Assembly: GCA_014859225.1 (NCBI GenBank)
Contig: JACUUP010000080.1
Coordinates: forward strand, 1-6,952
Reading direction: 5' to 3'
DNA length: 6,952 nucleotides
Source: Candidatus Aerophobota bacterium
GTDB taxonomy: Bacteria; Aerophobota; Aerophobia; Aerophobales; B3-G15
In this document: piece after piece, positions 4,106 to 6,952 of the stretch
Position numbering within the stretch: the stretch's first letter is position 1
How the letters are laid out: each line of letters opens with the position of its first letter
Notes under the pieces: model-generated
What the model saw: the letters and a program-made list of their open reading frames with translations, nothing else
Database searches by the model: none
Told to the model about the DNA's origin: nothing
Position numbers and translations under genes: made by a program

Positions 4106-5356
4106 TCAGGGATAAATTCCCCTTACCTTTGTTGCCTCAACTACCCTCTCTATGGCAAGTATAAGGGCAGCTTTTCGCATGCTAACATCTTTTTCGCGGG
4201 CTATCCTGTAGACATTTTCAAATGCCTTTTCCATGATGTCTCTGAGTTTAAGATTAACCTCCCTTTCGTTCCAGAAATGAAACTGAAGACCCTGAACCCA
4301 CTCAAAATAAGATACACTCACACCTCCAGCATTAGCAAGGATATCTGGAACAATAAATACTCCTTTTTCCTCAAGGATTTTATCTGCTGCGGAGGTTGTT
4401 GGACCATTAGCTGCCTCTACAATTAGTTTTGCCCTTATACCATCCGCATTATCCTGTGTGATCTGGTTCTCCAGTGCAGCAGGAACAAGCACATCACAGG
4501 TAAGGGTTAAAAGCTCTTCATTGGTAATTCTATCAGCATCTTTAAAACCAATGACAGAGCCCGTTTCTTTCAGGGCAAAGGAGACTTTAACGGGGTCTAA
4601 TCCTTTGGGATTATAGATACCACCTTCTATATCACTTATAGCAGTTATCTTGCAACCTTCCTGAAAGAGAAGGTGGGCAAGATTTCCACCTACATTTCCA
4701 AAGCCCTGAATGGCAAACTCTTTACTTAAAGGGTCAAAAGCAAGTTTTTTTGCTACGTTGAAAATGGTGAACATAACCCCTCTTGCTGTAGCTACATCTC
4801 TTCCAGCTGAGCCTCCAATGCATATTGGTTTTCCTGTAACAACCCCTGGAACAGAGTATCCTACATCCATACTGAACGTATCCATTATCCAGGACATAAC
4901 CTGGGGGTTGGTGTTAACATCAGGGGCAAGGATATCTTTTTCTGGTCCTATTATGGGAATAATCTCTGTGATGTATCTTCTTGTTAGCTTTTCCATCTCA
5001 CCTGAAGACATCTTAGCAGGCTCACAGACAATCCCGCCTTTTGCCCCCCCAAAAGGAACTCCAACTACTGCACATTTCCAGGTCATGAGCATGGCCAGTG
5101 CCTTTATCTCATCTAAGGTTACATCTGGATGATACCTTATACCTCCTTTAGCAGGACCTCGTGTGAGGCTATGCTGGACACGAAAACCGGTAAATACCTT
5201 TATAGAACCATCATCTATCTTTACGGGACAGGATACAGTTAAACACCTTTTTGGTTCTTTGAGGATTGAGCTAAGTCCCGCATCAAGATTCATATACTCT
5301 GCGACCTCATCAAATTCTTTTAATACTTCCTGTAAAAGATTTTCCGCACTTTCCAT
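4106..5356 (-). CDS. gdhA: glutamate dehydrogenase (Glu/Leu/Phe/Val dehydrogenase family)
   Basis: Catalyses reversible amination of 2-oxoglutarate to glutamate with NAD(P)H, in the cytoplasm. In the longest frame (418 residues from 5362) the signature is GPAKGGIRYHP (69-79), then the active-site block GVPFGGAKGG (101-110) with catalytic Lys108, and APDVNT with Asp148. The nucleotide-binding fold has GFGNVGG (220-226) and the C-terminal part has NAGGVSVSYFEW (344-355). Length fits the hexameric bacterial/archaeal class. Adjacency to a PII gene favours glutamate over leucine or phenylalanine as substrate. I place the start at ATG 5356 (416 residues): the AGGAG site (5367-5363) is 6 nt upstream of it, but directly abuts the alternative ATG at 5362. 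It is the second gene of an operon with glnB. It converges on the LarA-family gene with 15 bp between stops. NAD versus NADP preference is not decided. Confidence 0.93.
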   Translation of the reverse strand: MESAENLLQEVLKEFDEVAEYMNLDAGLSSILKEPKRCLTVSCPVKIDDGSIKVFTGFRVQHSLTRGPAKGGIRYHPDVTLDEIKALAMLMTWKCAVVGVPFGGAKGGIVCEPAKMSSGEMEKLTRRYITEIIPIIGPEKDILAPDVNTNPQVMSWIMDTFSMDVGYSVPGVVTGKPICIGGSAGRDVATARGVMFTIFNVAKKLAFDPLSKEFAIQGFGNVGGNLAHLLFQEGCKITAISDIEGGIYNPKGLDPVKVSFALKETGSVIGFKDADRITNEELLTLTCDVLVPAALENQITQDNADGIRAKLIVEAANGPTTSAADKILEEKGVFIVPDILANAGGVSVSYFEWVQGLQFHFWNEREVNLKLRDIMEKAFENVYRIAREKDVSMRKAALILAIERVVEATKVRGIYP

Positions 5357-5362
5357 CCTCAT

Positions 5363-5367
5363 CTCCT
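5363..5367 (-). promoter_or_regulatory. gdhA ribosome binding site overlapping the glnB stop codon
   Basis: AGGAG read on the minus strand from 5367 to 5363. It shares bases with the glnB TAG stop (5368-5366), suggesting translational coupling. Spacing is 6 nt to ATG 5356 but 0 nt to ATG 5362, which decides the start in favour of 5356. Confidence 0.7.
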
Positions 5368-5707
5368 AATAGATAGCTCTTTTCCCTACCTCTGCTGTCC
5401 TTATCCTTACAGCATCTTCAACCGGAAGAACAAATATCTTTCCTGCACCAATTGTTCTGGAAAAGCAAAGCTCACGTATTTTCTTTATTATATCATCAAC
5501 TATCTCCTCATCAACAACAATTTCAACTTTTATCTTGGGTAAAAATTTTACCTCTTTGTTTGGCACTTCACCTTCAAGGTAACCTCTCTGGGTCCCAAAT
5601 CCTTTTACCTCGCTTGCACTCATTCCCCCAACACCCATCTCTACAAGCTCATTTTTTATCTCATCAAGCTTTGATGGCTGGAGAAAACACTCTATTTTCT
5701 TGAGCAT
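5366..5707 (-). CDS. glnB: nitrogen regulatory protein PII, atypical T-loop
   Basis: PII proteins are trimeric sensors of ATP/ADP and 2-oxoglutarate that bind and control enzymes, transporters and regulators of nitrogen metabolism. The 113-residue protein has the family's normal length. It shows KKIECFLQPSKLDEIK at the start, EVKGFGTQRG (33-42) leading into the T-loop, FLPKIKVEIVV (55-65), the B-loop IGAGKIFVLPVED (86-98) and the C-terminal RIRTAEVGKRAIY. The T-loop is one residue shorter than in GlnB/GlnK, and GYLEGEVPNKE replaces the ELYRG stretch. Tyr51, the uridylylation site, is therefore missing, and no cyanobacterial-type Ser49 is apparent. Gln40 and Lys58 match conserved ligand-site residues. 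The AGGAG site (5718-5714) lies 6 nt before the ATG. It precedes gdhA in one operon, suggesting that glutamate dehydrogenase is a target (inference). No amtB is adjacent. Confidence 0.92.
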   Translation of the reverse strand: MLKKIECFLQPSKLDEIKNELVEMGVGGMSASEVKGFGTQRGYLEGEVPNKEVKFLPKIKVEIVVDEEIVDDIIKKIRELCFSRTIGAGKIFVLPVEDAVRIRTAEVGKRAIY

Positions 5708-5841: not shown

Positions 5842-6952
5842 ATGAAACTAAACTACAAAATAGATGCAAAGCTTTCTTTTCAGGCAAAACTAATAGGCAG
5901 GATGAAACTGGGAACATTTCTTGCTCTCCCAGAAAAAGATTTCAGTGAGTATATAAAAAAAATAGAAGAAAATGAACTTTTCCAGGAACTTATAAATAAA
6001 TACAAAATAATAAAATACAGAAAATTCCAGGCAGTTAAGCCAATTTCTTCCCACCCCCAATTTCGCGAAGAGCTTGCACCAGCACCTGATTTTGATCCGG
6101 TAGAGCTTATTCAAAAATATCCGCAAAACTGGCAAATAGTAAAAAAAGTAGCTTTAAAGATGGGTGAGAAAAAATTTTCCCTTTTTCTTAAAGGAAATAG
6201 CAGCATATCTCTCAAGGAAATTTTTAAGGAATGTGAACTTTCTCCTGAAGAGACTGAAAAATTTAAAGATTTTATTAATAATTTTCAACTGCAGGAAAGT
6301 TTTTTTGCTTCGGATACTTCTGAAACTTCTTCTCCCGCAACTCACCCTTACCAGGTAGCCTGTATTGAAAATCAAGAAGGAAGGCTTTTCATTCTCCCCG
6401 CTGATAACTCAACTTATCTTAGCAAAGGAAAATATATCATTAAGCATGAACAGCTAAAAAATCTTATCCAGGAAAGATTTATTCCGCAAGATAAAGCTAA
6501 AAAAATATCAAGCCTTTTATATAAACTTGATATGATAAACAGGCGAACAATAACCTTATACCAGATTCTCTATCAAATAAAGCAAAAACAACACCGCTTT
6601 TTCCTATCCGCAGACCCTAAAAACATAGTTCCCCTTACCCAGCTTGATATGGCAAAGGCTCTCAGGGTAAATCCCAGCACCATAAGCAGAGCCATAGCTA
6701 ACAAAAGCATAATTACTCCCTGGAGGGAGGAAAAAAGCTTAATTGAATTTTTTAGAGGAAAAAAGGGGAAAATTAAAATAATACTACGACAAATAATAAT
6801 AGATGAGATGAAAAACTTGAGGGAAGGTATCCTTAAGCATCCCTTAAATGACGAGAAGATAAAAGAAAAGCTAAAGGATGCTTTCGGCGTTCAGGTTGCC
6901 CGTCGCACTGTGGCTAAATACAGAGAGGAGCTGAAGATACCCCCTTCTTCCA
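5842..6952 (+). CDS. rpoN: RNA polymerase sigma-54 factor, reduced and divergent, 3' end cut by window
   Basis: An open frame of 370 codons with no stop before the window edge. Sigma-54 directs polymerase to -24/-12 promoters that need an ATP-dependent activator. The C-terminal half is diagnostic: PLTQLDMAKAL...STISRA (264-284) is the helix-turn-helix for the -12 element, and ARRTVAKYRE (353-362) is an exact RpoN box for the -24 element, followed by IPPSS. INRRTITLYQIL...QHRFF (233-255) matches the helix before the HTH. The N-terminus (10-51) is a poorly conserved region I ending in FSEYIKKIEENELF, like the usual EL...L..NPLL. The core-binding middle is compressed: SISLKEIF...EETEKFKDFINNF (120-149) resembles its first helices, but FDPxGVxAR and the following LLLQL-type helix are absent. 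Only a few codons seem missing, so the total would be about 375-390 residues against a usual 430-500. A weak GAGG site (5826-5829) precedes the ATG by 12 nt. Confidence 0.88.
   Translation, partial: MKLNYKIDAKLSFQAKLIGRMKLGTFLALPEKDFSEYIKKIEENELFQELINKYKIIKYRKFQAVKPISSHPQFREELAPAPDFDPVELIQKYPQNWQIVKKVALKMGEKKFSLFLKGNSSISLKEIFKECELSPEETEKFKDFINNFQLQESFFASDTSETSSPATHPYQVACIENQEGRLFILPADNSTYLSKGKYIIKHEQLKNLIQERFIPQDKAKKISSLLYKLDMINRRTITLYQILYQIKQKQHRFFLSADPKNIVPLTQLDMAKALRVNPSTISRAIANKSIITPWREEKSLIEFFRGKKGKIKIILRQIIIDEMKNLREGILKHPLNDEKIKEKLKDAFGVQVARRTVAKYREELKIPPSS

Follow-up and report, generated by a model that had tools for sequence, protein, structure and literature searches.

A gene at the end of a contig from Candidatus Aerophobota probably encodes a minimal working activator-dependent sigma-54 with a smaller core-binding surface. 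This reduced sigma-54 is most likely a new, lineage-wide variant of sigma-54 that would still bind core polymerase.

The window (that is, the whole stretch of DNA analysed) is a complete contig of 6,952 bases (G000:C195) from a 1.8-Mb draft genome. The reduced sigma-54 gene occupies 5842-6952 on the forward strand, with an ATG start at 5842 that is aligned across the family and 370 visible amino acids; the last few residues are absent because the contig stops at 6952. Divergent from it are a gene for a PII nitrogen-regulatory protein (5366-5707, reverse strand) and then one for glutamate dehydrogenase (4106-5362, reverse strand), neighbours that hint at a nitrogen role for the reduced sigma-54. 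No strong -24/-12 site was seen at these two genes, and none stands out in the window (30 loose matches as compared with 25.3 expected).

Domain architecture of the reduced sigma-54

The DNA-binding half of the protein matches Sigma54_DBD (PF04552) at 92.4 bits (cut-off, 22.8). It is made up of (i) an extra-long helix (residues 216-249; 6487-6588, forward strand), identified by alignment, model and conservation; (ii) the -12 helix-turn-helix (residues 267-293; 6640-6720, forward strand), identified by alignment and conservation; (iii) the RpoN domain (residues 306-370; 6757-6952, forward strand), identified by Pfam and by structure alignment to 2o8k (Z 7.1, r.m.s.d. 2.2, 59 aligned). The latter harbours an exact RpoN box, ARRTVAKYRE (6898-6927, forward strand); thus the original prediction of an exact box and a recognizable -12 helix-turn-helix was borne out. 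R235 (6544-6546; equivalent to E. coli R336) is invariant in 17 of 17 reduced copies, R283 (E. coli R383) in 16 of 16, and the two RpoN-box arginines (E. coli R455/R456) in 14 of 14, with the equivalences to R336 and R383 taken from the phmmer alignment with PDB chains, in which sigma-54 was matched over residues 170-370 or less only. In E. coli, R336 is a residue of the extra-long helix whose mutation bypasses the activator (PMC7057263, PMC6028918).

As for the remaining domains, neither Sigma54_CBD (PF04963) nor Sigma54_AID (PF00309) matched the window protein even at E<=10, so that among the three Pfam models only the DBD was recovered; in a scan with 14 family members, CBD and AID were likewise not among the 25 most often matched families at E<=1. 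Against TIGR02395, the NCBIfam full-length sigma-54 equivalog, the window protein scored 102.8 bits, as compared with a cut-off of 277.35. In the reduced copies, 97-105 residues lie between the C-terminal end of region I and that of the retained CBD module, whereas the interval from the NP motif ending region I to the LNPxPG of the CBD is 183-251 residues in canonical sigma-54. The deletion, of ~100 residues between region I and the CBD, takes half of the core-binding domain, and these lengths agree with the earlier observation that the acidic region II is almost absent.

The canonical CBD consists of two homologous helical modules, which end in FDPxGV and LNPxPG, respectively (hhalign E 1.7e-7); the homology can be seen, for example, in the L015 protein (residues 116-208 versus 201-265). 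Such homology offers a route to the in-frame loss of one module by recombination. By profile comparison the reduced sigma-54 has one module (residues 85-150; 6094-6291, forward strand), ending in FQLQESF instead of the DP/NP-x-G motif, and the beta part of the CBD lies at residues 168-200 (6343-6441, forward strand). FQLQESF occupies the position of the [FML]xP motif of the canonical modules. The original prediction that it replaces an FDPxGV-type stretch therefore holds in substance, although either CBD module could be the lost one: local scores of the retained module tie between canonical modules 1 and 2. A specific assignment of FQLQESF to the LNPxPG position was dropped for the same tie. 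Judged by global scores, and by the beta part that comes next, the second module is more likely the retained one. When region I is left out of the structure alignments, model residues 85-90 mostly pair with E. coli residue ~201 (two rows start at 119); the deleted portion is thus region II together with one CBD module, at roughly E. coli 51-200. Retention of the second canonical module is thus favoured by the global scores and most structure alignments. Region II and one module give way to a short linker (residues 53-84; 5998-6093, forward strand), ~32 residues modelled at low confidence and carrying a conserved, family-specific VIxYxKF motif.

Region I (residues 1-52; 5842-5997, forward strand) is a divergent helical hook, located by conservation, a weak profile match and model alignment. 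It is nearly full length and collinear with the canonical region, with G19, K22, E31, F34, E42 and F47 conserved in the family. The isolated region I profile matched canonical region I weakly and in the right place (LLQL...ENPLLE; P 0.005, as compared with 0.039 for the best of ten column shuffles), and model residues 15-52 align to E. coli sigma-54 from residue 15/16. Region I had been described as divergent; the AID model does not match it, yet it remains recognizable.

Two AF2 models of the reduced sigma-54, of modest confidence (pLDDT 67 and 70) and built on alignments of six sequences only, both feature a helical region I, one CBD module, the beta part, a 34-residue extra-long helix, the helix-turn-helix and the RpoN domain. 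Compared with sigma-54 holoenzyme chains (7qwp), they gave Z 14.4 (r.m.s.d. 7.5, 225 aligned) and Z 13.7 (r.m.s.d. 6.2, 228 aligned); the match in the C-terminal half is expected from sequence.

Distribution and phylogeny of the family

The reduced architecture was found in 18 copies from 12 genomes. By search with PF04552 and the family profile, reduced copies are present in 10 of the 17 genomes of the order Candidatus Aerophobetes, and a canonical sigma-54 was found in none of the 17; the survey for a second rpoN gene thus returned reduced copies only. Second PF04552 matches in G000 (C158) and G008 (C10) are not sigma factors and belong to LacI-type repressors. Among 386 genomes, full-length family matches were confined to the order plus G353 and G131, from two other families. 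A family alignment of four members also matched deposited Candidatus Aerophobetes records (Ae_b3a and Ae_b3b) from independent projects, whose names assign the lineage to that phylum, while a scan of genome contigs for close relatives, with the window protein as query, gave no match. Among open-access papers, none was found on Aerophobetes sigma-54 or on sigma-54 without core domains.

In a tree with 22 canonical sigma-54 proteins, the 18 reduced copies formed one clade (support 100/100) on a long stem (1.87 changes per site). They fall into at least four paralogue groups, with two copies each in G001, G004, G007, G009, G010 and G131, and the window protein falls together with G001 and G004 copies. 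For three close pairs, dN/dS was about 0.42 (0.041/0.097), 0.25 (0.084/0.330) and 0.31 (0.073/0.233), and thus the reduced genes are under purifying selection. In G007, the two reduced genes (L044:3703-4869 and L051:3313-4227) share 94.7% DNA identity over 1081 bp, ~160 bp of upstream sequence included, and a contig end interrupts the second gene within this repeat.

The assemblies of G003, G005, G011 and G016 carry activators, yet no sigma-54 at all was detected in them; G003, for example, is 93% complete and has five activators. Missing contigs are a likely cause, as these drafts are 69-93% complete and paralogous repeats break contigs.

Activators, operons and -24/-12 promoters

The survey for bEBP genes identified two AAA+ activators in the genome of the window and one to five in each of 13 of the 17 genomes of the order; no activator was found in G013, which has a reduced copy. 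Activator loops across the order read GAFTGA or GAFTDA/GSFTDA, with many keeping GAFTGA, while both activators of the window's genome carry GAFTDA/GSFTDA, not GAFTGA. In Desulfovibrio, GAFTDA is counted as one of the functional loop variants (PMC4641369). Given that function and the many GAFTGA loops in the order, co-evolution of GAFTDA with an altered region I was dropped.

Several paralogues of the reduced gene share operons with a histidine kinase and an NtrC-type activator. G353 and G131 have the sigma gene side by side with genes for a kinase and an activator; in G007 the sigma gene and kinase precede a response regulator that is truncated where the contig stops; an NtrC-type activator directly follows the sigma gene in G009 and G010; and a kinase plus a cut activator lie downstream of it in G004. 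Another paralogue group adjoins flhB, flhA and fliA (G001), a FliA-like gene (G004) and a chemotaxis receptor (G002), where flhB, the FliA-like gene and the receptor are names that we presume by eye from sequence.

A GG-N10-GC site with at least 9 of 11 consensus positions was found downstream of activator genes in 18 of 27 regions, as compared with 0-2 at nine other spacings, 0-2 on the opposite strand and a mean of 0.57 (maximum 3) after shuffling; the surveyed sites are thus specific to spacing and strand. Six of them lie 9-34 nt before flgB (G001-G005 and G016; the gene presumably so, as named by eye from sequence), with the order of activator, GG-N10-GC and flgB kept (L057, L059, L060, L062, L066 and L081), and others are located in front of genes for response regulators and transporters. 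Sites next to activator genes were found in each of G003, G005, G011 and G016. An exact TGGCAC-N5-TTGC precedes a CheY-like gene in G009, G010, G011 and G015; in G001 such a site stands before a flagellar rod/hook gene. A near-identical site, TGGCACAGAAATTGC, precedes a stand-alone gene for a CheY-like receiver by ~35-43 nt in four genomes (L132, L143, L149 and L158); in G015, a site of the TGGCACAGAAATTGC type points away from the reduced sigma-54 gene itself, in divergent orientation. In the genomes with a reduced sigma factor, a gapped search for TGGCAC gave, among the matches listed, 15 at the canonical spacing versus 3-7 elsewhere.

Proposed mode of action and comparison with known sigma-54 systems

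For the reduced sigma-54, the normal RpoN box and helix-turn-helix would recognize -24/-12 promoters, the lock formed by region I and the extra-long helix would keep polymerase in the closed complex, and an AAA+ activator would remodel region I so that the complex opens. With region II nearly gone, a single CBD module would grip core polymerase instead of two; this implies a smaller surface for core and DNA/RNA channels that are less plugged, and contacts with core may be weaker or relocated and promoter escape easier. The clade has duplicated into several paralogues; some are linked through their operons to a histidine kinase and an NtrC-type activator of their own, and one group lies beside flagellar genes. 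Core binding, activator dependence and a division of labour among paralogues are what we infer. The subclass envisaged in the original prediction, with presumably altered core binding, is well supported as a subfamily that spans the lineage, given its single clade of 18 copies, constant deletion and purifying selection.

Loss of region II and half of the CBD, along with the missing Pfam CBD match, could also suggest a DNA-binding regulator derived from sigma-54, which would sit on -24/-12 sites as a decoy or repressor without delivering polymerase. This is unlikely: the region I lock has its required residues unchanged in every copy compared, the genomes retain AAA+ activators and -24/-12 promoters, and the searched genomes of the order have no canonical sigma-54 to compete with, so that the earlier suggestion of a paralogue competing with a normal sigma-54 at such sites is not supported. 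It is also quite improbable that the protein has become independent of activators through its diverged region I, although that region has no AID match and, on pre-opened templates, altering region I or R336 can make the activator unnecessary (PMC7057263). The R336 equivalent is kept in all 17 copies compared, region I is collinear and retains conserved residues, sigma genes share operons with activators, and the activators keep GAFTGA or its functional variant GAFTDA (PMC4641369); altered activation, also raised at the outset, thus finds little support.

The position of the gene at a contig end, with several relatives also breaking at contig ends, might point to an artefact of assembly or annotation, a deletion in one contig. 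The chance of this is negligible, as the same architecture and constant internal length recur in the 18 copies of 12 genomes, the deposited records come from independent projects and at least one contig break is explained by a second copy 94.7% identical; the assembly deletion that could have undone the original prediction was therefore not borne out. Beyond the minimal working sigma-54 favoured here, a more speculative possibility is a separate sigma-54 branch in which the core interface has been re-engineered to one CBD module plus the VIxYxKF linker, the RNA exit and DNA channels are largely unplugged, and each paralogue is hard-wired to its own kinase-activator pair, like modular ECF sigma systems.

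The reduced sigma-54 resembles canonical sigma-54/RpoN (E. coli, Klebsiella and Aquifex) in its RpoN box, -12 helix-turn-helix, extra-long helix with the R336 equivalent, region I hook, AAA+ activators and GG-N10-GC promoters. It differs in the stretch from region I to the CBD, which is shorter by ~100 residues, in having one CBD helical module rather than two and almost no region II, and in falling below the Pfam CBD, AID and TIGR02395 thresholds. As a consequence, Pfam/NCBIfam surveys that require CBD plus AID would miss the whole family, and sigma-54 would be wrongly scored as absent in these phyla.

A shortened region II has been described for Rhodobacter capsulatus sigma-54 (PMC10786286), a feature shared with the reduced form. 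Paralogues with distinct roles, one of them flagellar, are known from Cereibacter (Rhodobacter) sphaeroides (RpoN1-4; PMC12316311), where RpoN3 has been described with its cognate activator (PMC11999139). The presence of several sigma-54 paralogues is likewise common to that species and the reduced family. RpoN1-4 are not known to depart from the canonical domain architecture, and R. capsulatus sigma-54 is not known to have lost a CBD module.

A likewise strongly reduced protein and sequence outlier, the 332-aa sigma-54 of G051 (family f42; L054:4083-5078, forward strand), shows the opposite reduction, as it matches the CBD model over 15-122 with the rest absent. The G051 genome is 1.42 Mb in one contig; it and the related genome G196 have one AAA+ activator each. 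The 332-aa protein appears to be a second instance in which sigma-54 was reduced, independently of the first.

In known structures, region II and the CBD of sigma-54 plug the DNA/RNA channels and grip core polymerase (PMC7057263, PMC10786286). A lineage whose sigma-54 seemingly works with half a CBD and no region II is a natural deletion experiment, one that tells which parts of sigma-54 promoter recognition and activator control can do without, and in which the loss of region II and of CBD sequence predicts changed core affinity and promoter escape relative to the canonical factor.
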